Assembly (NCBI RefSeq): GCF_007990755.1
Contig: NZ_BJXA01000014.1
Span: 1-64,000, forward strand
Direction: 5' to 3'
DNA: 64,000 bases
DNA from: Nocardia ninae NBRC 108245
GTDB lineage: Bacteria > Actinomycetota > Actinomycetes > Mycobacteriales > Mycobacteriaceae
Shown here: positions 563 to 43,916 of the stretch, in pieces
Layout: each line of letters starts with the position of its first letter
How positions within the stretch are numbered: the stretch's first letter is position 1
Made by a program: the position numbers and the translations under genes
Notes under the pieces: model-generated
Databases searched by the model: none
What the model saw: only the letters and a program-made list of their open reading frames with translations
Told to the model about the DNA's origin: nothing

Positions 563-653
563 GGTGGCGTGTCCGAGCGGCCTAAGGAGCACGCCTCGAA
601 AGCGTGTGAGGGGTAACCCCCCTCCGAGGGTTCAAATCCCTCCGCCACCGCCA
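563..653 (+). tRNA. tRNA-Ser (CGA)
   Basis: The acceptor stem GGTGGCG (563-569) pairs with CGCCACC (643-649), followed by discriminator G and encoded CCA (651-653). The anticodon loop CTCGAAA inside stem CACGC/GCGTG gives anticodon CGA, which reads UCG. A long variable arm (GTGAGGGGTAACCCCCCTC) is typical of class II tRNA-Ser. The T loop TTCAAAT is standard. Its 3' end is repeated at 7444, so this gene is the attachment site of the following island. Confidence 0.95.
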
Positions 654-718: not shown

Positions 719-1279
719 TCAGGTTTCCTTCATTGGCTCCTCGAACAGCAGTGTCGGCTCAGCGAGGATGTCTCGCCCTGTTTCGCTCTTGTAGACCTCG
801 TCCACGCTGCCGAACCTGGCTTCGGTGTAGTCCAGACCCAGGCGTGTGGCTGCGAGACGCACGGCAGACTCGCTCGGACCCTCGATCTCCAGGAATGTCG
901 GTAAACCGGGCCAGGTGTCCAGGTCGAACACCATGTCGCCGAGTTGCCACTCCTCGCGGTAGTTCTCCTGGTATCGGACCTGCCGCAGGCCGAGATTGAC
1001 CAGGATTTCTGCCATGGCGTGCAGGTCTCCCACGGCGGTTTCGATTTCAGTGGTGCCGTCGATGGTGGTGGCGTCGGTGACCTGCTTGAGTGTCAGCGTG
1101 GAGCGTGACCCCTCGTCACGCAGGCGGACCCATGCACCACGAGTCAGTGAGTCGTTCTCGAATATCTTGCGGGTCAACAGCGTTCGTGAGAACGACTGGA
1201 TCGCGCCGAGCCCGGTGAGCTTCGCGCGCAGACCTTCGACGTCTACCGCCAGGAACTTCGCCTCGTACTCATGTTTCAT
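719..1279 (-). CDS. CYTH-domain (class IV adenylate cyclase / triphosphatase-like) protein
   Basis: This is a 186-aa CYTH (triphosphate tunnel metalloenzyme) protein. The hallmark ExExK motif is at residues 4-8 (HEYEAKF), and later strands show the alternating charged residues of the tunnel. Members act on triphosphate-containing compounds (cyclising ATP, or hydrolysing thiamine-, nucleoside- or inorganic triphosphate). The substrate cannot be told here. The ATG at 1279 overlaps the TGA of the upstream methyltransferase by four bases, so translation is coupled. It is the last gene of the leftward radical-SAM/kinase/methyltransferase/CYTH operon in the tRNA-Ser island. An upstream in-frame extension exists but only reads through the neighbour. 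Confidence 0.82.
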   Translation of the reverse strand: MKHEYEAKFLAVDVEGLRAKLTGLGAIQSFSRTLLTRKIFENDSLTRGAWVRLRDEGSRSTLTLKQVTDATTIDGTTEIETAVGDLHAMAEILVNLGLRQVRYQENYREEWQLGDMVFDLDTWPGLPTFLEIEGPSESAVRLAATRLGLDYTEARFGSVDEVYKSETGRDILAEPTLLFEEPMKET

Positions 1280-1953
1280 TGCTGCTGTATCCGCCTTCGA
1301 GTTGGTCCTCCGGGGTCTCGCCTTGCGATAAGCAATCCCATGCGGTGGGTGTGGTCGTCCAACTGGCCCACATGGGCACGCTCGGTGAACCAGTCGGTGT
1401 GCAACGTCAATTGCACCTCCCAATCGTTCGTGAAGTAGCGGGACAGTCGGTCGGGTGCGGTGTAGTGCTCGATCGAGTGGTGACGTGGTTCGACCGGCAT
1501 CATGAACTCCGCACCGAACAGTCCTCCCCGTCGAACGAGCCGCTGCATCCGGCCGACGAACTCACTCAGAGGTCTTCGGTGGTTCACGCTGTAGTGCCAC
1601 GAGCAGCTGGTCCATACCGCGTCAACGGTGGTCTCCGCGGATTCGACTTCGAGGAAGTCCGCGCACACGATACGAACTCGATGATGGAGATTGGCCTCTT
1701 TCAGCCGCTCCACCAAACCAGGGACGTAGGTAATCCCCGACACCGGAAGCAGCGCTTCGCCGCCGTTCAGCGCAAGCGGGTCCTTCTCGATGGCGACAAC
1801 GCGGTACCCGGCTGCGGCTAGGGGCAGTACGAACTTGCCGTCGCTGGCACCGATCACGGCTACGGTCGCGCCCGGCCGGCACTCTTCATTGAGAGCGCGC
1901 ACGAACTGAGGAAAGAAGGTCAGGGTCTGTTCCCACAGGCTATCGGTAGGCAC
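1276..1953 (-). CDS. Class I SAM-dependent methyltransferase
   Basis: This is a protein of about 225 residues with a Rossmann methyltransferase core: motif I VAVIGASDGKF near residue 32, the acidic end of strand 2 (VVAIEKDP), then CADFLEV and a proline-poor motif around TSCSWHYS. The acceptor is unknown. I choose the GTG at 1953 because GGGGG lies at Shine-Dalgarno distance; a TTG at 1965 would add four residues. It overlaps the kinase gene upstream and the CYTH gene downstream (ATGA), placing it in the middle of the island operon. A role in modifying the same small molecule as its neighbours is inference only. Confidence 0.78.
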   Translation of the reverse strand: MPTDSLWEQTLTFFPQFVRALNEECRPGATVAVIGASDGKFVLPLAAAGYRVVAIEKDPLALNGGEALLPVSGITYVPGLVERLKEANLHHRVRIVCADFLEVESAETTVDAVWTSCSWHYSVNHRRPLSEFVGRMQRLVRRGGLFGAEFMMPVEPRHHSIEHYTAPDRLSRYFTNDWEVQLTLHTDWFTERAHVGQLDDHTHRMGLLIARRDPGGPTRRRIQQQ

Positions 1954-2506
1954 GGTCGCCCCCAATCGCGTTCAGGTCCAGGATCGCTCTGACGACCTGC
2001 TCGGGTCGTCGTCCGCTGGTCTCGATCTGGTGGACGGGAAGCTGGAGGTAGGCGTCGGCAAGGCGCTCGGCATTCTGCTCGCCGATGGTGTCCCATCTCG
2101 TAGCTGGTTTAGCGCGCGCAGCCATACGCTTCCGCCGTTCGTGTGGCTCGCACACCAACTGGTACATGACTGGTTGGGGCAGGTTGCGCGGGAGGATCAC
2201 GTCGACGTCAGCTCCATAGACCCGGTGGGTGGTCAGGCAGCGGGCGAAATAGCTTTCGACCACGACGGGAATTCCGGCGTCGAGATACCGGCGGATCTGG
2301 TCGACTGCGGTGAAGAGCGCGGATAGGAAGAGGCACATCCGCGCATTCGCGTTCTCGTACATGTCGAGTTCCCGGCGAAGTGGTTGATAGAACGCTGGAA
2401 CTGTCGGCACCAGGACTGCCTCGCGAGCTTCGGCAAGCAATGGGGCGACAGTCGATTTTCCAGTGCCAGGTAAGCCTTCGATACTCTCGAAGAGGTACCT
2501 ACGCAT
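1940..2506 (-). CDS. P-loop nucleotide kinase-like protein (thymidylate/deoxynucleoside kinase fold)
   Basis: Walker A is GLPGTGKST at residues 11-19, right after an N-terminal strand. A DR-like segment (VVVESYFAR) and a basic LID-like stretch (HERRKRMAARAK) resemble thymidylate and deoxynucleoside kinases. It probably phosphorylates a nucleoside, nucleotide or related alcohol. The ATG at 2506 overlaps the radical SAM stop by eight bases (ATGCGTAG), which fixes the start; an in-frame codon at 2521 would add five residues. Coupling to a radical SAM gene and a methyltransferase argues for a dedicated biosynthetic role rather than DNA precursor supply. Substrate unknown. Confidence 0.75.
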   Translation of the reverse strand: MRRYLFESIEGLPGTGKSTVAPLLAEAREAVLVPTVPAFYQPLRRELDMYENANARMCLFLSALFTAVDQIRRYLDAGIPVVVESYFARCLTTHRVYGADVDVILPRNLPQPVMYQLVCEPHERRKRMAARAKPATRWDTIGEQNAERLADAYLQLPVHQIETSGRRPEQVVRAILDLNAIGGDRAYR

Positions 2507-3398
2507 GGCTGTACACCACATCCGGGATACCCAGTGTCACTTCGTCTTTAGCCGACGGCCGGTGGACGATGCGATCTGTGTCCTTGTCGTACCAAAAGGC
2601 ATGCGAGTCCTTGCCCACGGCCTTGCACGACATCGTGAGGGCGCCCCGTGGGTCGGATTCGATTCGGTCGATTTCATCGCGCGGGCCTGGCATGGCGCAC
2701 GGTAAAGCGCCGTCTTCGGACAGGTCTTCATCCAAGACCACTTCTATTCGTAGCGGTGCGCTCCGCAGCTGGTCGCGCATCACCGAGTAGTCAGCGGGAT
2801 CGGTGACCAGTAGTTCAGGATGGAGCGCAGCGTTTCCGACAGGGCGCAGCTGATGCAGTTTGAGCTGCGAGACTCCTAGCGCTTGCAGCGTGTAGGCAAG
2901 GTCGACTACTTCGCTGATGTTGTGTCGGTTCACAGTCAGTGTCGCCCCGGTTCGCACGCCCAGGCCCCGCGCGAGGGCGATCGAATCGAGTGCCGCCGTG
3001 TAGCTTCCATCGCGGCGAATGGCGTCGTTGGTGTTGCCGATGCCTTCTAGCGAGATTCGAAGCAGGTCAATACACGGTGCGATTTCGCGCAAACGTGGAC
3101 CGATTCGGTAGCCGTTGGTGCAAATCTCCACTACCTGACCGAGGGTGTGCTTCGCGTAGCGAACAACGGGTGCCAGATCCTTGTAGACGAACGGCTCGCC
3201 GCCAAGCAACGTCACTGCCTCCGTGCCGTGTTGCTGCTGCATGAGTCGCATCAGATTGCATGCCTGCTCGGCGGTGTAGGCATCTGCGTATTTCAGCCGC
3301 TCACCGTGGAAGCAATGACCACAGGCGAAATTGCAGCGGTACAGCAGTTGGAGATACAGCATCCGAATCTTGCGCACACCGGTGACTTCTTCAATCAC
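2499..3398 (-). CDS. Radical SAM enzyme
   Basis: A 299-aa radical SAM protein. The cluster motif CNFACGHC (Cys22, Cys26, Cys29) binds a [4Fe-4S] cluster, and LLGGEPF is the SAM-binding GGE motif. A SLEG strand and a TNR/RPVG stretch follow, as in MoaA/PqqE/SPASM-type enzymes. Two more cysteines sit in the C-terminal part (LPCAMPG, TMSCKAV), too few for a full SPASM domain. I start at the GTG at 3398, which has GGGGGA six bases upstream; a longer frame to 3551 would overlap the divergent regulator. It is the first gene of the leftward four-gene operon. It could make a modified nucleotide or a peptide-derived product; no precursor peptide was recognised. Confidence 0.82.
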   Translation of the reverse strand: MIEEVTGVRKIRMLYLQLLYRCNFACGHCFHGERLKYADAYTAEQACNLMRLMQQQHGTEAVTLLGGEPFVYKDLAPVVRYAKHTLGQVVEICTNGYRIGPRLREIAPCIDLLRISLEGIGNTNDAIRRDGSYTAALDSIALARGLGVRTGATLTVNRHNISEVVDLAYTLQALGVSQLKLHQLRPVGNAALHPELLVTDPADYSVMRDQLRSAPLRIEVVLDEDLSEDGALPCAMPGPRDEIDRIESDPRGALTMSCKAVGKDSHAFWYDKDTDRIVHRPSAKDEVTLGIPDVVYSHA

Positions 3399-3516
3399 GT
3401 TGTCCCCCTGAGGTTTCGTGGGTGGGAAGTCATCGTGTCCGAGAACAGCAGGACCGCGTAACCGCGTATAGGGCTGGGCGATAGACGTCCTGGGACGTTT
3501 TCGGCGTCCCGCCGCG
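3399..3516. promoter_or_regulatory. Divergent promoter region, radical SAM operon / XRE regulator
   Basis: This 118-bp gap separates the leftward operon from the rightward regulator-NUDIX pair. It must hold both promoters and is the obvious target for the XRE protein encoded beside it. I could not define an operator by eye. Confidence 0.5.
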
Positions 3517-4290
3517 ATGTCCTTGCTGATGCCAGGCTCGTCGGCTTCCATAGAGACTGTGAACGTCCGACTACAGAGCGTGCTGCTCCAGCGTGGCGTC
3601 AGGCCCGAGTCGCTGGCCGAAGCGTGCCAGGTTGACCCGAAGACAGTCGGACGATGGCTTGGCGGCAGGGTGCCACACCCGAAACATCGTCACCGCGTCG
3701 CGCACCACCTTCGTGTTGAAGAAGAGTTTCTGTGGCCGCCCGCGCCGGAGACTCCGCCGGTTCCGAAGAACCTCGAGTTGGTTGCCACCTATCCGAACCG
3801 CGCCGAGGTACCACGAGAAGTCTGGTTGTCGCTGCTCCGCGACGCCACCGAACAGGTAGACGTACTGGTCTTCTCCGGGACGTTCTTCGTCCAGACGAAC
3901 CCCCAAGTCGTGAAGATGCTTGCCGAGCGGGCTGTCCAGGGAGCAAAGGTCCGGCTGTGCTTCGGAAATCCCACTGGCGAAGCCGTTGCCGCTCGCGGTC
4001 TAGAGGAAGGCATCGGCGATACCTTGTCGGCGAAAGTCCGTGCGTCACTGACCTATTACCGGACGTTGCTGTCCGAGGATGGGTGCGAGGTCCGCCTACA
4101 CGACACGACGCTGTACAACTCTCTCTTCCGCTACGACGAAAACCTACTGGTGAACCCACATATCTGGGGACAACCCGCCAGCGCAAACCCGGTTGTCCAA
4201 CTCAAGCGCGTCGACGACTCCGGATGGTTCGACAACTACACCGAAAGCTTCGATGCCATCTGGGCAGACGCGAAACCTTGGACACCCTGA
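3517..4290 (+). CDS. XRE-type regulator with PLD-like C-terminal domain (DUF5919-like)
   Basis: The 257-aa product has an N-terminal helix-turn-helix (residues ~14-60, with LAEACQVDPKTVGRWLGG as the recognition region). A C-terminal alpha/beta domain (~85-255) contains VDVLVFSGTFF and GAKVRLCFGNP, resembling the phospholipase-D-like fold of DUF5919 regulators. Such proteins in actinomycetes commonly sit directly before a NUDIX gene, as here (13-bp gap). It probably senses a ligand through the C-terminal domain and controls the divergent promoter. The start at 3517 is the first ATG; 3529 or the GTG at 3559 are possible. Confidence 0.8.
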   Translation: MSLLMPGSSASIETVNVRLQSVLLQRGVRPESLAEACQVDPKTVGRWLGGRVPHPKHRHRVAHHLRVEEEFLWPPAPETPPVPKNLELVATYPNRAEVPREVWLSLLRDATEQVDVLVFSGTFFVQTNPQVVKMLAERAVQGAKVRLCFGNPTGEAVAARGLEEGIGDTLSAKVRASLTYYRTLLSEDGCEVRLHDTTLYNSLFRYDENLLVNPHIWGQPASANPVVQLKRVDDSGWFDNYTESFDAIWADAKPWTP

Positions 4291-4303
4291 CGAAAGGCTG
4301 ATC

Positions 4304-4771
4304 ATGGGCAGAATCGAGTACTACTTCGACCCGAAGGCACCCAAGCCCAATTCGCTTGTGGTGGCATGCAATCTGCTCGTCACCGACGAGTCCGGGGCAA
4401 TTCTGTTGCAGCGGCGTCGTGATACGGGTCAGTGGGCGTTGCCTGGTGGCGCAATGGATATGGGCGAAACGCCCGCCGAGTGTGCCATCAGAGAATGTCA
4501 GGAAGAAACCGGTATCACGGCTGAAATAACAGGCTTCCTAGGCGTTTACAGCAACCCGAATCACATCGTCGCCTATACCGATGGCGAAATTCGTCAGCAG
4601 TACGAGAACACTTACATCGGCCGACCAGTCGGCGGGGAGCCCACCATCAACGACGAAGCTGACGGCGTAACCTTCGTGCTCCCTACAGATTTGGACCAGT
4701 ACGATATCCACCCGAGTATGCGCCAACAGATCGGTGACTATCTGTCGGGCAACTACCCCTACCTCGGATGA
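4304..4771 (+). CDS. NUDIX hydrolase
   Basis: A 155-aa NUDIX protein. A full NUDIX box (G-x5-E-x7-REUxEE-x-GU) occupies residues 49-71, with GETPAEC and RECQEETGI clearly visible. These enzymes hydrolyse nucleoside diphosphates linked to another group. The ATG at 4304 has GAAAGG at good distance. It follows the regulator gene as an operon, and its 3' end overlaps the convergent HD gene by 13 bp. Its substrate may be the product or by-product of the island pathway (inference). Confidence 0.88.
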   Translation: MGRIEYYFDPKAPKPNSLVVACNLLVTDESGAILLQRRRDTGQWALPGGAMDMGETPAECAIRECQEETGITAEITGFLGVYSNPNHIVAYTDGEIRQQYENTYIGRPVGGEPTINDEADGVTFVLPTDLDQYDIHPSMRQQIGDYLSGNYPYLG

Positions 4772-5322
4772 GTCAATAGCGCTTGCTCGATCCGCGCCAC
4801 TGTCGCAAAGATATCCGGTGTAGCACGCTGAATGAACCGACCCACCAAGGTATCTGGACCGTAGCGGCTTATGATTTCTGCTACCCGGTCGCCCGCCGTG
4901 GTTCGTGTGCCATCCGGTGTTGTTGTTATGTCGCAGTAGGTCAAGGCATCCACCAGCAGTGGATTATCCAGGATAGGAAACTCTGACTCCAGTTCGTCAC
5001 GCAAACCGCGCTCGTCCGCTTCCAGCAAAGCGAAGGTGTGGTTCGCGACCAGACGGACAAGCCGCTCATCGGCGCGATGCTCGTCCCGCAAGAAGCGGGC
5101 ACCGTCCAGCGGATGAAACCCGGTCATCGCAAGCCTGGGCGCGTATCCGACGTCATGGAGGATGGCGGACGCTTCGAGCAATTCCTGATCGCAGCTGAGT
5201 TGTGCCGCAAGCTCAACCGCGGCTTCCGCCACTCCCTTCGAGTGCTCCCAACGTCGATGTAGCGGTATCTCCAACTCGCTCTGAGCCAGACGCCAAGCCC
5301 AAGACGGCTCGTAGACGGTCAT
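4759..5322 (-). CDS. HD-domain phosphohydrolase-like protein
   Basis: A 187-aa HD-domain protein. The metal ligands are visible as H27 (WEHSKG), the HD doublet H56-D57 (ILHDVGY), H near 94 (ANHTF) and a downstream Asp (TYCDITTT). HD proteins of this size hydrolyse phosphate esters, often of nucleotides. It is convergent with the NUDIX gene (13-bp overlap), so the two 3' ends are locked together, which suggests long co-inheritance. It completes a set of nucleotide-handling enzymes in the island. Confidence 0.83.
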   Translation of the reverse strand: MTVYEPSWAWRLAQSELEIPLHRRWEHSKGVAEAAVELAAQLSCDQELLEASAILHDVGYAPRLAMTGFHPLDGARFLRDEHRADERLVRLVANHTFALLEADERGLRDELESEFPILDNPLLVDALTYCDITTTPDGTRTTAGDRVAEIISRYGPDTLVGRFIQRATPDIFATVARIEQALLTHPR

Positions 5323-5530: not shown

Positions 5531-6298
5531 ATGCCGGAAAACGAGCAATCCGAGGACGTCACGGTTGCAGTTCCAGCCGCCGATGCGATTGCGTTCACGG
5601 AACTTGCGAACGTAACAGTCCGTGAGAGCTTGACCGCGCAGCATCTCTGGGCTGCACTGCATTTTGCACGACTGTGCGACGAACGCGAAGCCGAGGTCAC
5701 GCAGGCGGCATCCGGCAAAGTAGATTTTCCGCATCGTTCGTATGCGATGGCTAGCGTAAAATTCGCAGCCTCATTCCTCGAATCACTCGTGAACGAGCTG
5801 TTCAGTGACGCCGCAGACCAGTACATGTCTACGAACACCGCACGCATGAGAGTGTTTACGCCTCAAGTCATCACGACGCTGGCAACCCTATGGGATGAGA
5901 CCGAGGTTCGGAAGAAGAAGCAATATCTCCAACTGTTCGAAAAGTATCAGCAGGCTCTCGGTATCGCTGGCGTAGCCTTGTTTGCCAAAGCTGATCCAAT
6001 TTACAGTTCTGCTCAATCCATGATCTACCTGCGGAACCAACTCGTCCACTTCAAGGTTGGTTGGCAGAAGGTGGGCGTGCCGCAGAACCAGGCGAGTGAG
6101 ATCGAGAGGCGTCTAAAACCCGAGTTCTTGGGCAACCGACAGCCAATCGGCATGCCGTGGTTCCCAAACAAATGTTTGGGCGCAGGGTGCGCGCAATGGG
6201 CCTGCACCACGGCCACGGTATTCGCAGACGAGTGGCTCGCCCGGATGGCCCTTCCGCAAGACTACAAACAGACGTTATGCGACTTCGGTGCTCCGTAA
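5531..6298 (+). CDS. Hypothetical protein with HEPN-like RxxxxH motif
   Basis: A 255-aa mostly helical protein that I do not recognise as a named family. Near residue 168 it carries YLRNQLVH, i.e. R-x4-H preceded by hydrophobics, which matches the catalytic motif of HEPN ribonucleases found in toxins and abortive-infection proteins. Codon use is less GC-rich than the surrounding chromosome (runs such as GAAGAAGAAGCAATATC), supporting recent transfer. The ATG at 5531 has GAGGTAG upstream. No partner antitoxin gene is obvious beside it. The HEPN reading rests on one motif and is an inference. Confidence 0.6.
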   Translation: MPENEQSEDVTVAVPAADAIAFTELANVTVRESLTAQHLWAALHFARLCDEREAEVTQAASGKVDFPHRSYAMASVKFAASFLESLVNELFSDAADQYMSTNTARMRVFTPQVITTLATLWDETEVRKKKQYLQLFEKYQQALGIAGVALFAKADPIYSSAQSMIYLRNQLVHFKVGWQKVGVPQNQASEIERRLKPEFLGNRQPIGMPWFPNKCLGAGCAQWACTTATVFADEWLARMALPQDYKQTLCDFGAP

Positions 6299-6766: not shown

Positions 6767-7443
6767 GCCCAGACGTCGTTCCGTCGATCCATAAAACCGT
6801 GTCTTGCCGTGAAGATCGCGCCAACTGTGGTCGTTCGCCTCATCGCGAGGGCGGCGACCGGAAGCGGTCCCCTCCCCGGTTGCCGTTTTTGAGGAAGAGC
6901 AAGGTGGGCGTGACCGGAACGTCCGATGCCGTCTGCTGCGCGGTCGCGAATGTCGGCATCTGCCGCAAGTCATGAGCTGGGGTGGCGGCACCCTCCTTCC
7001 CTCCCGGTTCACGGCCCATCCTCAGGCATACGGGCCAAACCTCCACCGACCAGGGGGGAGGGGGGTCGGAGGCAACTATTGGCCTGCCCTCAGGCATACA
7101 GGCCGGTATCCCCCCGCGCGGACTTCTGTTGAAGAGAGATGGGCGACTGTGCCGGAGGATGCGTCAGCAATGGCACGGAGGGGTTGTATGCCCGGTGTGT
7201 CTTACACCCCTTGGAACCCGTACTTGGAGAAGACAACAGAGCGGTGCGGGGGCGAGTAGGCATGCGGGGGAGGGGTCCCTAGCCTGGGGTGTTTCCAGCA
7301 GGCGACGAGGTGTTGGTGACAAGAATCTGACAAAGAATGCCGGTCGAACGCAGTCTTCGGCCGGGAATGCGAGTGAATGAAAGTTCTGTGCTACCAGAGG
7401 GTTTGCGCGAAATCGCCTGATCGTGGTAGTGGGGTGACGGAGC
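6767..7443. other. Gene-poor right end of tRNA-Ser island with a short direct repeat
   Basis: No frame here has convincing coding character. CCTCAGGCATAC-x-GGCC occurs twice (around 7020 and 7089), about 69 bp apart, within purine-rich and pyrimidine-rich tracts. A decayed integrase/excision region would be expected at this end, but no integrase similarity could be read. Confidence 0.5.
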
Positions 7444-7470
7444 GTTCAAATCCCTCCGCCACCGCCAAAA
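7444..7470 (+). repeat. attR-like copy of tRNA-Ser 3' end
   Basis: Exact copy of 630-656, without the 5' two-thirds of the tRNA. This is the displaced original tRNA 3' end expected after site-specific integration into 563-653. Confidence 0.85.
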
Positions 7471-7505
7471 AGCCCTTCATCTGCACGAGCAGGTGAAGGG
7501 CTTTT
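7468..7505 (+). terminator. Terminator following the displaced tRNA end
   Basis: AAAAGCCCTTCATCTGC (7468-7484) pairs with GCAGGTGAAGGGCTTTT (7489-7505) with one wobble, loop ACGA, then a T-run. It is probably the ancestral terminator of the tRNA-Ser gene. Confidence 0.85.
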
Positions 7506-7526
7506 TTTATACCGGTCGACTACGTC

Positions 7527-33418: not shown

Positions 33419-36070
33419 ATGCTGCGCGCTGGTGAGGTTTTCGCCGGATACGTGATCGAGCGCCAGCTGGGTCGCGGCGGGATGGGGTCGGTGTACCTGG
33501 CGCGGCACCCGCGTTTGCCTCGGCGGATCGCGTTGAAGCTGCTCAGCACGGAACTGCACACCAATGACGAGATGCGAGCCCGGTTCGAACGGGAGGCGGA
33601 GTTGGTCGCGCAATTGGATCACCCGAACATCGTTGCGGTGTACGACCGCGGGGTCGACGACGGTATCCGGTGGATCTCGATGCAATACGTCGACGGCATC
33701 GACGCCGGAGCCCTCGACCCGCCCTCGGTGGATCCGCAACGGGCGGTGGACATCATCGCCGAGACGGCCAAAGCCCTCGACTACGCGCACGCAGTCGGTG
33801 TCCTGCACCGCGACGTGAAACCGGCCAACATCCTGCTGGCCCACCCGACCGCAGGCCAGGACGAGCGAGTCCTGTTGACAGACTTCGGCATCGCCCGCCT
33901 CCGCGACGACGCACACCAGCTGACCCGAACCGGAATGTTCGCGGCCACCTTGGCCTACGCCTCGCCCGAACAGTTGTCCGCAACGCCCGTCGACCACCGC
34001 TCCGACCAGTACGCCCTGGCCTGCACCCTCTTCTGGCTGCTGTCCGGCACCGCACCCTTCACCGCCGACAACCCGGCCGCAATAATCGCCGGCCACCTCC
34101 ACCAACCCCCACCCTCGATACAAACCCGCAACCCTGGCGTGCCGCCCGCCATGGACGCGGTACTGACAAAGGCCCTGGCCAAGCAACCCGCAGACCGATT
34201 CGACTCCTGTTCGGAACTCGCCACCGCAGCGCGCCGAGCGTTGACCGGCGCAACCGGGGTGGACGGCACGAAACCCAGCCCGGAGAGCCGACCGTCGACC
34301 GGCCACGCACCACCTACCGTGCCGCAGCCGTGGGTACCTCCGGGCGGGCGGCACGTGAAACCGAGCGAGGGCACGCAGGAACCGGTGCCGGGCGAGCACG
34401 CGCGGCGGGGCGAATCAGCGGAACCGCTCACTCCGAGCATGCGGACTCGGCAGGTCGAGTTGGGTGCCTCCACCGAAGGTTCGGCCGCGACTGAGCGAGC
34501 CGCGCAGTCGGCATTCGGCGAATCCGCACAACGCCTGGCACCTGGCGAGCGCACGCGGCAGGTCGAGTCGAGCGACTTGGGCACAGGCGCGGCGCCGGGC
34601 GAGCTCACCCAGCGAGAACAGTCGGGCGGTCTTGCCTCAGGTCTCGCTGAGGGCGAGCGGACTCGGCAGCAGGAGCGAACCGGTACCCGCCGGGGATCGG
34701 CGTTCAGTGAGCGCATCTCACCGGCGGCGGACCAGCGCGAGCGGCGGGTTGGGGTGGGGGAGGGTGCGTCCGGGACTGATCTGGCACGGCGTCCCGGTCG
34801 GACCGCGCGCAATGCCGGGCTCGCGGGGACGGCGGTGGTTACCGTGGCAGCGGTTGTGGCGGGGATCCTTTGGGCGAATGCGGGATCGTCTTCGAATGGT
34901 CCGGCCTCGTCCGGTCCTGGTGCTACGCAGACGATCGGTTGGTCGGGTGCCATTGCTCCCGGGACCGCTGGTGCACCTCGAGGCGTCGAGCCGCTGACTC
35001 AGATCGATGCGCTGGGTGCGGAAGTCGGCAAGCCCGGTGCCGCCAGTACTCCGGCCGGGGATCGCAAGGCCAGGTGCGTGCCCGTAACCATCGCCACGAC
35101 AGCCGTTTTCACCGGTCCGAACACGGGCGCGGGTCGCAGTGCTGACGGTGGGGCGAAGCTGGCCATCGATCAGTTCACGAAGGCGAACCCGGGATGTCCT
35201 GTCACACTGCGTGAATTCGATATCGCGGGCGGCACGCAGGCGGCTGCGGGGGTGGCCGCGCAAATCGTGAACGATCCGTCGATCGTCGCGTTGATCGGCC
35301 CGGTGTTCTCCGCCGAAACCCAGGCCGCTGGACAGATTTTCGATAAAGCTGGCCTGCCGTTCCTGACCCCGTCGGCCACCGATCCCGCACTATCCACCAA
35401 CGGATGGCGCACATTCTTCCGTGGTTTGGCCGCCGACGATGCTCAAGGCACCGCCCTGGCGAAGTATCTGGTCAACACGGCTCGCTTTCGCAAGATCTGT
35501 GTCATTCAGGACAAGAACGGTTACGGCAGAAGCCTGGCGGGCAGCGCCGTATCCAGCCTCGGTTCCGCGGCCTCGCCGAACTGCGCCGCGGAGATCGCAC
35601 AGGGAGACCGTGACTTCACCACGGTGGCAGCCGATGTCGTCGCCGCTGAACCGGACGCGATCTTCTATTCCGGCTTCTCCGAAGAGGCGGCCGCGCTTCT
35701 CCAGCAGCTGAGGCGAACAGGTGTTACGGCCCCGTTCGTCTCCGCGGAAAGCACGGTCACCCCGGATTTCGTTGCCCAGGCGGGGGATTCGGCTGCAGGC
35801 GCGATTCTGTCCTGCTCGTGCGGCCCTGTCGTCGCCCAGTTCGCCAGTGACTACCAGGCTCTCAACGGCCACACTCCAGGACCGAGCTCCGCCGAAGCCT
35901 ACGACCTGACGACAATCGTCTTGAAAGGCATCGCCGTCGGTCGCACGAGCCGTGCCGACCTGGTCGACTACCTGCGCGGTTACGACGGCACCGGCCTCGC
36001 CCGCACCTACCGCTGGTCCACTAACGGCGAACTCGCCGCTCCCCATACCTGGCTCTACAAGGTCAATTGA
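33419..36070 (+). CDS. Receptor-type Ser/Thr protein kinase with extracellular substrate-binding-protein-like sensor, copy 1
   Basis: An 883-aa PASTA-less kinase. The kinase domain (~11-275) is complete: GRGGMGSVYLA glycine loop, Lys40, HRDVKPAN (130-137), DFG (155-157). A long charged linker (~275-460) carries repeats around ERTRQVE. One transmembrane helix (~463-483) leads to an outer domain (~545-883) with the type I periplasmic-binding fold of branched-chain amino acid receptors: VFTGPNTGAGRSADGGAKLAIDQF, IVALIGPVFSAETQAA, PFLTPSATDP, YGRSLAG. It should sense a small solute outside and signal by phosphorylation inside. A close paralog lies at 41,760. Confidence 0.9.
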   Translation: MLRAGEVFAGYVIERQLGRGGMGSVYLARHPRLPRRIALKLLSTELHTNDEMRARFEREAELVAQLDHPNIVAVYDRGVDDGIRWISMQYVDGIDAGALDPPSVDPQRAVDIIAETAKALDYAHAVGVLHRDVKPANILLAHPTAGQDERVLLTDFGIARLRDDAHQLTRTGMFAATLAYASPEQLSATPVDHRSDQYALACTLFWLLSGTAPFTADNPAAIIAGHLHQPPPSIQTRNPGVPPAMDAVLTKALAKQPADRFDSCSELATAARRALTGATGVDGTKPSPESRPSTGHAPPTVPQPWVPPGGRHVKPSEGTQEPVPGEHARRGESAEPLTPSMRTRQVELGASTEGSAATERAAQSAFGESAQRLAPGERTRQVESSDLGTGAAPGELTQREQSGGLASGLAEGERTRQQERTGTRRGSAFSERISPAADQRERRVGVGEGASGTDLARRPGRTARNAGLAGTAVVTVAAVVAGILWANAGSSSNGPASSGPGATQTIGWSGAIAPGTAGAPRGVEPLTQIDALGAEVGKPGAASTPAGDRKARCVPVTIATTAVFTGPNTGAGRSADGGAKLAIDQFTKANPGCPVTLREFDIAGGTQAAAGVAAQIVNDPSIVALIGPVFSAETQAAGQIFDKAGLPFLTPSATDPALSTNGWRTFFRGLAADDAQGTALAKYLVNTARFRKICVIQDKNGYGRSLAGSAVSSLGSAASPNCAAEIAQGDRDFTTVAADVVAAEPDAIFYSGFSEEAAALLQQLRRTGVTAPFVSAESTVTPDFVAQAGDSAAGAILSCSCGPVVAQFASDYQALNGHTPGPSSAEAYDLTTIVLKGIAVGRTSRADLVDYLRGYDGTGLARTYRWSTNGELAAPHTWLYKVN

Positions 36071-41759: not shown

Positions 41760-43916
41760 ATGCTGCGCGCTGGTGAGGTCTTCGCCGGGTATGTGATCAA
41801 GCGTCGGCTGGGTCGCGGCGGCATGGGCGCGGTGTACCTGGCGCAGCACCCGCGACTGCCGCGGCTGACCGCGTTGAAACTTCTCGACCCGGAGTTGTAT
41901 GCCGACAACGAGATTCGGGCCCGGTTCGAGCGTGAAGCCGCGCTGGTGGCGCGGTTGGACCACCCGAACATCGTGCAGGTCTACGACCGCGGCTTCGACG
42001 AGGGCCTGCTGTGGATCTCCATGCAATACGTCAACGGTGTCGACGCCGCCGACATCGACCCGCGCGCGGTGCCGCCGGAGCGGGCGGCGGAGATCATCAT
42101 CGAGACGGCGAAGGCACTCGACTACGCCCACGCCATCGGAGTGCTGCACCGTGACGTGAAGCCTGCCAACATCCTGCTGGCCCGGACCACCGCCGGACAG
42201 GGTGCTCGGGTGCTGCTGACCGACTTCGGTATTGCCCGTCTGCGTGACGAGTCCCGGCAGCTGACCGAAACCGGAGCGCTCGCCGCGACGCTGGCGTACG
42301 CGTCGCCGGAGCAGTTGTCGTTCACCCCGGTCGACCACCGCTCCGATCAATACTCGTTGGCGTGCAGCCTGTTCTGGCTGTTGACGGGCTCGTCACCGTT
42401 CGCGGCGGGTAGTCCCGCCGCGATCATCGCGGGTCATCTTCAGCACGCGCCACCGTCGGCGCGCAGCCTGCGGGAGGAACTGCCGTCCGAGGTGGACGCC
42501 GTGCTGACGAAGGCGCTGGCCAAGCAACCCGACGAAAGATTCGCGTCCTGTACGGAATTCGCGGTCGCGGCGCAGCAAGCTTTGACGGCACCGCAGATAC
42601 CGACTCTGCCGCAAGCGATTTCACAGGAGCAGGACGCGCGGGCTGCCACGAAGCGGTCACTTCGTATCGGTGGGTTGGTGCTCGGGGTGGTGATCGCGCT
42701 GGTGGCCGGGTTCCTGTGGGTGAAGGCCGACCGTGCCACGACCAAGACCGCCGTCCGTACCGGACCTATTGCGCAGCAGCCGATCGACTGGTCCGGTGCC
42801 GTCGCGCCAGGGACGACCACCGGGCCCGCACCCTTCCAGGCGATGAGGCAGATCGATGCCGAAGGCCGGGAGGTGGCTCGGCCGAGTGCCGCGGCCAGTC
42901 CGGCCGGCGACGGCAAGGCCACCTGCGAACCGATGACCATCGCGTCCACCGCGCCGCTCACCGGGAACAACGCCGGAACCGCCCGCGGCCTGCTCGGTGG
43001 GGTGAAGCTGGCCGTCGATCAGTTCACCAGGGCGAACCCCGGCTGCCGGGTCGCTGTGCGTGAGTTCGATACCGGCGGGTTCCCGCAGACTGCGGCCGAT
43101 GTCGCACGGCAGATCGTGGACGACTCGTCGATCATCGCCTTGGTCGGCCCGTTGTCGTCCGAAGCCCGTTCCACCGGTGGGATTTTCAGCGACGCGGGGT
43201 TACCGTTCCTCTTTCCGGGTGTCACTCCCGTCGACCCGACCAGCACCGCCTGGCGCACCTTCTTCCGCGGTGTGGCCACCGACGACGTCTACCGCCGTGC
43301 GGTGGCCAAGTACCTGCTCGACACGGCCCACTTCCGCAAGATCTGCGTCGTCCGCGATGACAGCGGGTTCGGCAAGGGCATGGCGCACGACGTCGTCGCC
43401 ATCCTCGGGGCCGCGGCCGACCCCGGTTGCCGGGTGGAGGTCAAGCAGGGTGAGCGTGACTTCGCCGCGGTGGTGGGCAAAGTCGCCGCTGCCGCGCCGG
43501 ACGCGGTGCTCTACTCCGGTTACAGCGCCGAAGCGGCCGCCTTCACCCGGCAATTGAAACAGGGCGGCGTCAACGCCGCTTTCGTCGCCACCGAAGGCGC
43601 GCTCAGCGTGGATTTCGTTGCCCAGCCGGGAAATTCGGCGCAAGGCGCGGTGCTGACGTGCACGTGCGGTCCGGTCACCGGAAAGTTCTACTTCGACTTT
43701 CGCGCCTTGAACGGCCAAGGGGCTGGCTGGAACGCGGTGGAAGCCTACGATCTGACCACCATCGCGTTGAACGGCATCGCCGCAGGTCACCGCACCCGCG
43801 CCGACCTGCTGACCTACTTGCGCGGCTACGAGGGCACCGGCCTCGCCCGCACCTACCGCTGGTCGGACAACGGTCAACTGACCACCCCCGGAATCTGGAT
43901 CTACACCATCAGCTGA
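41760..43916 (+). CDS. Receptor-type Ser/Thr protein kinase with extracellular substrate-binding-protein-like sensor, copy 2
   Basis: A 718-aa paralog of the kinase at 33,419. It has the same N-terminus (MLRAGEVFAGYVI), glycine loop GRGGMGAVYLA, Lys40, HRDVKPAN and DFG. Its linker is short, with the transmembrane helix at ~300-320, and the outer domain (~385-718) has the same binding-protein fold (PLTGNNAGTARGLLGGVKLAVDQF, FPGVTPVDPTSTAWRTFFRG, FGKGMAHDVV). The CTCGPV and CRVAVREF cysteines recur in both paralogs, so disulfides are likely. A DUF3558 lipoprotein gene follows by 33 bp and may form part of the sensor. Confidence 0.9.
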   Translation: MLRAGEVFAGYVIKRRLGRGGMGAVYLAQHPRLPRLTALKLLDPELYADNEIRARFEREAALVARLDHPNIVQVYDRGFDEGLLWISMQYVNGVDAADIDPRAVPPERAAEIIIETAKALDYAHAIGVLHRDVKPANILLARTTAGQGARVLLTDFGIARLRDESRQLTETGALAATLAYASPEQLSFTPVDHRSDQYSLACSLFWLLTGSSPFAAGSPAAIIAGHLQHAPPSARSLREELPSEVDAVLTKALAKQPDERFASCTEFAVAAQQALTAPQIPTLPQAISQEQDARAATKRSLRIGGLVLGVVIALVAGFLWVKADRATTKTAVRTGPIAQQPIDWSGAVAPGTTTGPAPFQAMRQIDAEGREVARPSAAASPAGDGKATCEPMTIASTAPLTGNNAGTARGLLGGVKLAVDQFTRANPGCRVAVREFDTGGFPQTAADVARQIVDDSSIIALVGPLSSEARSTGGIFSDAGLPFLFPGVTPVDPTSTAWRTFFRGVATDDVYRRAVAKYLLDTAHFRKICVVRDDSGFGKGMAHDVVAILGAAADPGCRVEVKQGERDFAAVVGKVAAAAPDAVLYSGYSAEAAAFTRQLKQGGVNAAFVATEGALSVDFVAQPGNSAQGAVLTCTCGPVTGKFYFDFRALNGQGAGWNAVEAYDLTTIALNGIAAGHRTRADLLTYLRGYEGTGLARTYRWSDNGQLTTPGIWIYTIS

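Follow-up and report, generated by a model that had tools for sequence, protein, structure and literature searches.

What does an actinomycete gain from keeping a radical S-adenosylmethionine (SAM) enzyme, a P-loop kinase, a methyltransferase, a CYTH protein, a regulator, and NUDIX and HD hydrolases side by side? The question is raised by a seven-gene cassette at positions 719 to 5,322 of a 64,000-nucleotide stretch of Nocardia ninae NBRC 108245 DNA (contig NZ_BJXA01000014.1, positions 1 to 64,000; hereafter the window), for which the original prediction had proposed a new pathway to a modified nucleotide-like or phosphorylated small molecule. All seven open reading frames (ORFs) are present in the positions and orientations first given. 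They form one conserved unit, and the CYTH gene is found without the radical SAM gene in several genomes. The explanation that fits best, offered tentatively from sequence comparisons, is that the cassette is a mobile mini-cluster for a nucleoside- or nucleotide-type antimetabolite, with the CYTH protein as self-protection. The cassette consists of the following features:

719..1279, minus strand: CYTH (triphosphate tunnel) protein, 186 amino acids; Pfam CYTH 38.5 bits; start from alignment with relatives
1276..1965, minus strand: class I SAM-dependent methyltransferase; Methyltransf_11 E 1.2e-7; start probably 1953 (alignment of 13 sequences)
1940..2521, minus strand: P-loop nucleoside/nucleotide-type kinase, resembling thymidylate and deoxynucleoside kinases below curated cut-offs; start perhaps 2506
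2499..3398, minus strand: radical SAM enzyme; PF04055 67.8 bits; start from alignment of 16 sequences
3484..3499, no strand: palindrome GACGTCCTGGGACGTT, a putative operator, 85 bases upstream of the radical SAM gene
3517..4290, plus strand: XRE-type helix-turn-helix (HTH) regulator with C-terminal DUF5919 (30.8 bits, cut-off 23.5); start may be 3559
4304..4771, plus strand: NUDIX hydrolase; PF00293 76.4 bits; Nudix box intact; start refined by relatives
4759..5322, minus strand: HD-domain phosphohydrolase; PF01966 47.1 bits; HD motif intact in alignment

The cassette is one conserved unit

Conservation was scored at 49 distinct loci, 46 of them from radical SAM searches or the window and three from a CYTH search, after removal of the duplicates L094, L098, L099 and L127; a gene counts as intact if its top match is free of stops and spans 85% or more of the query. 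The radical SAM gene is intact at 43 of these loci, where its intact neighbors are CYTH (43), methyltransferase (43), kinase (42), regulator (41), NUDIX (40), HD (40) and a HAD phosphatase (32). The complete seven-gene set (HD, NUDIX, regulator, radical SAM, kinase, methyltransferase and CYTH) is intact at 39/43. Of the four incomplete loci, L008 and L147 are at contig ends, L146 has neither HD nor NUDIX and retains only part of the regulator, and L142 has a kinase match interrupted by a stop. For the seven genes of the 39 complete cassettes, between-gene correlations of the protein-distance matrices are 0.66–0.95. Because CYTH and methyltransferase genes adjoin the radical SAM gene at 43/43 loci and the distance matrices are correlated, linkage beyond chance is confirmed, and the expectation that the four leftward genes would be found together elsewhere is borne out. 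The unit is in fact larger than first described, with the HAD phosphatase as an eighth gene in Streptomyces-type copies; it is missing at all eight Nocardia loci.

A protein search of named genomes gives 14 close radical SAM loci (66–82% identity) in Nocardia, Streptomyces and Kitasatospora, and two distant ones; the same neighbors occur at all 14 close loci, save for one contig ending inside the NUDIX gene. In whole-genome searches the radical SAM gene is present in 7/148 genomes of the window's genus, in 26/295 Streptomyces genomes (two with damaged copies) and, at class level, in 5/394; across the phylum at E 1e-24 it is found in one of 296 genomes, the window's own. Counts that take in the genus include the window's genome. 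The genes flanking the cassette are mostly unshared except between close relatives, and a short ORF (~123 codons) straight after CYTH, common to six Streptomyces-type loci (L012, L093, L014, L016, L017 and L020; for example L012:8750-9121 and L016:8759-9130), is a candidate ninth gene. One Streptomyces-genus genome (G726) has two diverged cassette copies (L128 and L148), one of them with no intact HAD gene. At L093 (G540) the regulator start and HAD gene are missing and the radical SAM gene is split in two frames, with kinase, methyltransferase and CYTH genes remaining.

Among the window ORFs, Pfam cut-offs are passed by CYTH, Methyltransf_11/25, Radical_SAM, DUF5919, NUDIX and HD, such that the domain assignments of the original prediction largely hold; the kinase falls below cut-off, and the description of the regulator as "PLD-like" is not sustained. 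The regulator scores 12.9 bits to PLDc_2 (cut-off 27) and has no HxKxxxxD motif in an alignment inspected by eye; its HTH_31 match is also below the Pfam cut-off, and it is weakly similar to the NsdA family (20.5 bits, cut-off 75). The kinase scores 26.6 bits to AAA_18 (cut-off 29.4), 20.6 to Thymidylate_kin (27) and 15.9 to TIGR00041 (83.25), which does not place it among the thymidylate kinases; the P-loop is present, and its GTGKS and ESYFARCL motifs are invariant or nearly so in 14 aligned rows. The ORF first listed for the radical SAM enzyme includes a 51-codon N-terminal extension that runs into the divergent regulator, and the refined start is at 3398. Overlaps of 4–14 bases had been proposed for the leftward genes; with refined starts the overlap of CYTH with methyltransferase is 4 bases, the kinase/methyltransferase and radical SAM/kinase overlaps vary with the choice of start, and the convergent NUDIX and HD genes overlap by 13 bases. 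The NUDIX hydrolase is the best-conserved protein of the unit, with a mean identity of 89%.

An alignment of 16 radical SAM sequences shows the CxxxCxxC core and, towards the C terminus, a single invariant cysteine (DPRGALTMSC), such that a full SPASM or auxiliary-cluster set is presumably lacking. No NCBIfam cut-off is reached by the enzyme among the best 25 of 63 families, the top match being NirJ (71 bits, cut-off 515); placement in a well-known family with an unlinked role, which would have counted against the original prediction, is thus not seen among these. Profile searches of PDB place SkfB, cytosylglucuronate decarboxylase and viperins at the top, with matches confined to the core region. 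The nearest radical SAM enzyme outside the cassette, at 36% identity, belongs to a cluster (L090:4125-13443, on contig 35 of G383) with thymidylate-synthase-like, carbamoyltransferase, sulfotransferase, APH phosphotransferase, methyltransferase, P-loop kinase and NUDIX genes, together with a glycosyltransferase-like gene (below cut-off) and an epimerase-like gene (by eye), a set that we take to resemble a nucleoside-antibiotic cluster. The kinase and methyltransferase encoded there have no match to those of the cassette at E 1e-3.

The space between the regulator and radical SAM genes of the window holds a palindrome of 16 bases, in which RACGTCC and GGACGTY are separated by two bases; this pattern, taken from an alignment, occurs once in the window's own 9.7 Mb genome. 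The palindrome is exact at 34 of 41 non-Nocardia loci (damaged and orphan loci included) and at five of eight Nocardia loci, and across 39 exact sites its distance to the start of the radical SAM match is 82–91 bases; in Streptomyces-type loci it lies between the HAD and radical SAM genes. Imperfect forms have one mismatch (L009 and L095) or one extra middle base (L096 and L014), and a further block, ACGCGGTkACG..GTCC, is conserved in an alignment of 44 sequences. The palindrome is perhaps the operator of the XRE/DUF5919 regulator.

The CYTH protein and its occurrence without the radical SAM enzyme

CYTH proteins include both cyclases and triphosphatases. True class IV adenylate cyclases carry HFxxxxExExK and have alanine in place of the second glutamate of ExE, and thiamine triphosphatases carry W/YxRxR, the tryptophan of which stacks an aromatic ring (PMC8233210, in part). 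The window protein begins MKHEYEAK and has intact ExExK, WxRxR and ExE motifs, and 45 of the 49 cassette (type-1) loci, the window included, pass a triphosphatase motif filter (ExExK, RxR and ExE), the exceptions being L010, L147, L148 and L152. ExE reads EIE in 45/45 type-1 rows scored, and the letters HF occur within the ten residues ahead of ExExK in one CYTH row only. The tryptophan of WxRxR is found in 45/45 type-1 rows scored and also in L010, L147 and L148 (one Nocardia and two Streptomyces-genus loci), where EYEAT replaces ExExK and WxRxR and ExE are retained. Searched against PDB at E 0.01, the CYTH profile has a single match, Sulfolobus SaTTM (Saci_0718; E 6e-11), a CYTH-family triphosphatase and not a cyclase, which differs in having alanine where the cassette CYTH has the tryptophan of WxRxR (PMC8233210, in part). 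Assignment to class IV adenylate cyclase (CyaB) is rejected, as the HF motif is lacking, the second glutamate of ExE is kept, and the TIGR00318 score is 38.7 bits (cut-off 57.95). With the WxRxR and EIE motifs, and Saci_0718 as the one PDB match, the cassette CYTH is likely an organic triphosphatase rather than an adenylate cyclase, and its ligand is probably aromatic.

Loss of the cassette genes is asymmetric. CYTH matches of at least 360 bits occur in 6/296 genomes, three with the cassette and three without (G237, G391 and G253); no radical SAM enzyme of the cassette family is found in the latter three at E 1e-20, and the intact CYTH gene has a methyltransferase remnant beside it in two of them (G237 and G391). 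Intact type-1 radical SAM genes lacking CYTH number 0 among 43 loci. Three damaged cassettes were met through radical SAM searches, and CYTH is intact in two (L093 and L151) and absent from one (L152); L185, in G252, is a decayed type-1 copy. A further CYTH gene (34.6% identity) is at positions 6001-6555 of L212, from the Rhodococcus ruber conjugative plasmid pYYL1.1, with insertion sequence transposases nearby and no radical SAM gene annotated in the 12.5 kb around it, in a gene table that is incomplete. The asymmetry resembles the behavior of a resistance gene, and a protective role for the CYTH protein is likelier than a synthetic one.

A second system pairs a MoaA-like radical SAM gene with an adjoining gene for a CYTH protein 31–39% identical to that of the cassette (L180, L182, L186 and L189). 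Its radical SAM enzyme falls below the cut-off for archaeal MoaA, at 78.7 bits, and W/YxRxR is present in 9/10 of its (type-2) CYTH rows by script and in the tenth (L186, QWIRLR) by eye. As in the cassette, a NUDIX gene is nearby and CYTH often occurs without the radical SAM gene. At L182 and L189 the pair is divergent from an HTH regulator, a member of the NsdA family at L189 (136 bits, cut-off 75). It is unlike the cassette in that the radical SAM enzyme is MoaA-like and the NUDIX gene, at these two loci, converges on the far end of the regulator rather than following it, and the window kinase, methyltransferase and HD proteins have no match at E 1e-3 within up to ~8 kb on each side, less at contig ends. 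The second radical SAM gene was sought in ten genomes, all selected for having CYTH, and is present in four, each time beside CYTH. The six genomes without it are G375, G446, G235 and G367, where the CYTH motifs are retained, G294, with a truncated CYTH devoid of its N-terminal motif, and G252, where the decayed type-1 copy lies. At L181 and L183 radical SAM remnants adjoin an intact CYTH gene, and G406 has two further CYTH copies with no intact radical SAM gene.

Genomic setting and signs of mobility

The cassette is flanked by a tRNA gene and a second copy of its end:

563..653, plus strand: tRNA-Ser(CGA) (ARAGORN), apparent integration site of an island
7440..7506, plus strand: second copy of the tRNA-Ser 3' end and terminator, right end of the island (31-nt and 39-nt repeats)

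The repeats, 626-656/7440-7470 (31 nt, 97%) and 653-691/7468-7506 (39 nt, 79%), are 6.8 kb apart, and the GC content of the cassette genes is 0.56–0.62, against 0.649 at 8–64 kb. There is thus a duplicated tRNA 3' end around DNA of lower GC content, as in an island at a tRNA gene. In a control, 8 of 200 random window segments also have exact matches of at least 24 bases; the case for an island depends on the repeat being the tRNA end plus its terminator, in the same orientation. The order tadA then tRNA-Ser is found at 19/19 relative loci examined, drawn from 40 genomes searched; within their 1.5 kb flanks no empty integration site was found, and the right-flank genes are not beside tRNA-Ser. 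Pfam and NCBIfam scans of ORFs lying between the repeats show no integrase. A tRNA gene is present at 12/48 relative loci, and 132 flanking proteins from 40 loci include five C5 DNA methylases, five relaxases and two integrases among the best 25 of 92 families; a PADLOC scan of flanking proteins returned methylases, apart from mad3, among the best 25 of 82 families. The cassette is apparently mobile, between Nocardia and Streptomyces.

Carriage of the radical SAM gene by plasmids or phages is rejected. No record among the 79 from the plasmid search reaches either 80% query coverage or 60% identity, the phage search gave one partial match, and the kinase has no plasmid match. In viral contigs, 54 loci match the radical SAM enzyme at 24–36% identity, mostly over short stretches, with L042 and L063 spanning query residues 9-278.

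In G587 (contig 16) and G588 (contig 1), the 3' end of tRNA-Ser recurs in additional exact copies lying ~10 kb from that gene, which suggests other islands at this site. The window island also contains a 255-codon ORF (5531-6298), for which a scan with a longer start gave nothing at E 0.1 in Pfam, NCBIfam or PADLOC. Elsewhere in the window are genes for two similar long proteins (33419-36070 and 41760-43916) that appear by eye to be fusions of a serine/threonine kinase and a part like a substrate-binding protein.

Candidate functions of the cassette

The closest known design is that of the Photorhabdus genes thmA (radical SAM), thmB (nucleoside kinase) and thmC (nucleoside triphosphatase), which suffice for 4'-thiothymidine in E. 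coli, and of which thmC alone confers resistance (PMC12691670, in part). Both systems are compact, with a radical SAM enzyme, a kinase and a triphosphatase (in the cassette a putative one), both have surroundings that vary between species, and neither the three thm genes nor the cassette include a transporter. The cassette differs in using CYTH as the putative triphosphatase and in its additional methyltransferase, NUDIX, HD, in some copies HAD, and dedicated regulator. The likeness, judged by architecture, is one of design. No description of the unit was found in searches of open-licence papers, nor in passages of PMC13118837 and PMC10853773, in keeping with the view that no named system has this set.

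We tentatively favor a cassette for a nucleoside- or nucleotide-type antimetabolite because the unit is inseparable, the CYTH motifs and the asymmetric loss point to protection, thm offers a precedent, and a 36%-identical radical SAM enzyme lies in the L090 cluster. The radical SAM enzyme would edit a nucleoside or nucleotide, the kinase would phosphorylate the intermediate or product, and the methyltransferase would tailor it, with the HAD, NUDIX and HD hydrolases stripping phosphates or disposing of faulty products. The toxic form would be a triphosphate, which CYTH would cleave to let the producer survive; the divergent XRE/DUF5919 regulator would control the unit, perhaps through the palindrome upstream of the radical SAM gene. 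The original prediction is thus supported in part: the unit of nucleotide- and phosphate-acting enzymes is real and conserved, and the presumed role of CYTH moves from synthesis towards protection. A broader proposition, which we advance with more hesitation, is that two radical SAM lineages in actinomycetes are each paired with CYTH for nucleotide-type poisons. CYTH may then be a new kind of self-resistance gene that survives alone in non-producers, and minimal nucleoside-antibiotic clusters like the cassette, carried on tRNA islands and conjugative elements, would form a new family.

Several observations weigh against this interpretation. At L152 it is CYTH and the methyltransferase that are gone, with HD, NUDIX, regulator, HAD and kinase intact. 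The sample of orphan CYTH genes is small and comes from searches with CYTH as the query, such that the counts favor orphans, and since the type-2 genomes were all chosen for CYTH, the asymmetry argument extends there only to CYTH without radical SAM. Ratios of nonsynonymous to synonymous substitution (dN/dS) are 0.12–0.31 for orphan CYTH and 0.13–0.34 for methyltransferase remnants, with no clear difference; because they are like those of decaying neighbors, active retention of orphan CYTH is not proven. The lysine of ExExK is not universal in the cassette CYTH family, being threonine in L010, L147 and L148, and the unit has no transporter. Finally, the cassette is in places next to genes for DNA methylases and conjugation, a setting that would fit defense cargo equally well.

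Anti-phage defense is the main rival, although we consider it unlikely. A modified nucleotide produced upon infection would poison phage replication, as with viperins, and CYTH, NUDIX and HD would limit self-damage. Prokaryotic viperins (pVip) make 3'-deoxy-3',4'-didehydro nucleotides, and those with kinases share with the cassette a similar radical SAM core beside a P-loop kinase. The radical SAM enzyme matches PADLOC pVip at 79.3 bits and the kinase matches PDC-M51B (59.5 bits) and VakA (33.6 bits), and the patchy, apparently mobile distribution and the methylases, relaxases and integrases among flanking proteins are consistent with defense. However, the pVip models also match three other radical SAM enzymes of the same genome (48–62 bits), the viperin family NF038283 (cut-off 180) is matched at 57 bits, and the methyltransferase and CYTH are additional to viperin systems; membership in the viperins is rejected. 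A CYTH gene outlasting the rest would also make little sense were the poison purely internal.

More doubtful again is a signal or cofactor-like molecule (thiamine-like, for example, or a modified nucleotide hormone) that would control growth or development, with enzymes for its turnover. WxRxR is the motif of thiamine triphosphatases, and the NsdA affinity of the regulators, weak in the window and within the family at L189, is in line with such a role. Presence in only 26/295 Streptomyces-genus and 7/148 same-genus genomes argues against a core function, however; none of the seven genes is a recognized thiamine gene (Pfam and NCBIfam), and the window has no Rfam match at gathering score and hence no known thiamine riboswitch. 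A clean-up or salvage module, in which the radical SAM enzyme would repair a damaged nucleotide and the hydrolases sanitize the pool, is improbable: it would suit the four phosphate-acting hydrolase families (CYTH, NUDIX and HD, with HAD in Streptomyces-type copies), but the genes are kept together as a unit on an apparent island and sanitizing enzymes are normally separate housekeeping genes.

If the cassette does encode a nucleoside-type antimetabolite and its protection, small nucleoside-type natural products of a widespread but unexplored class could be reached by expressing as few as four to eight genes. The label "class IV adenylate cyclase" on these actinomycete CYTH proteins would then be replaced by "triphosphatase, likely resistance", and orphan CYTH genes would flag resistance to compounds still to be discovered.

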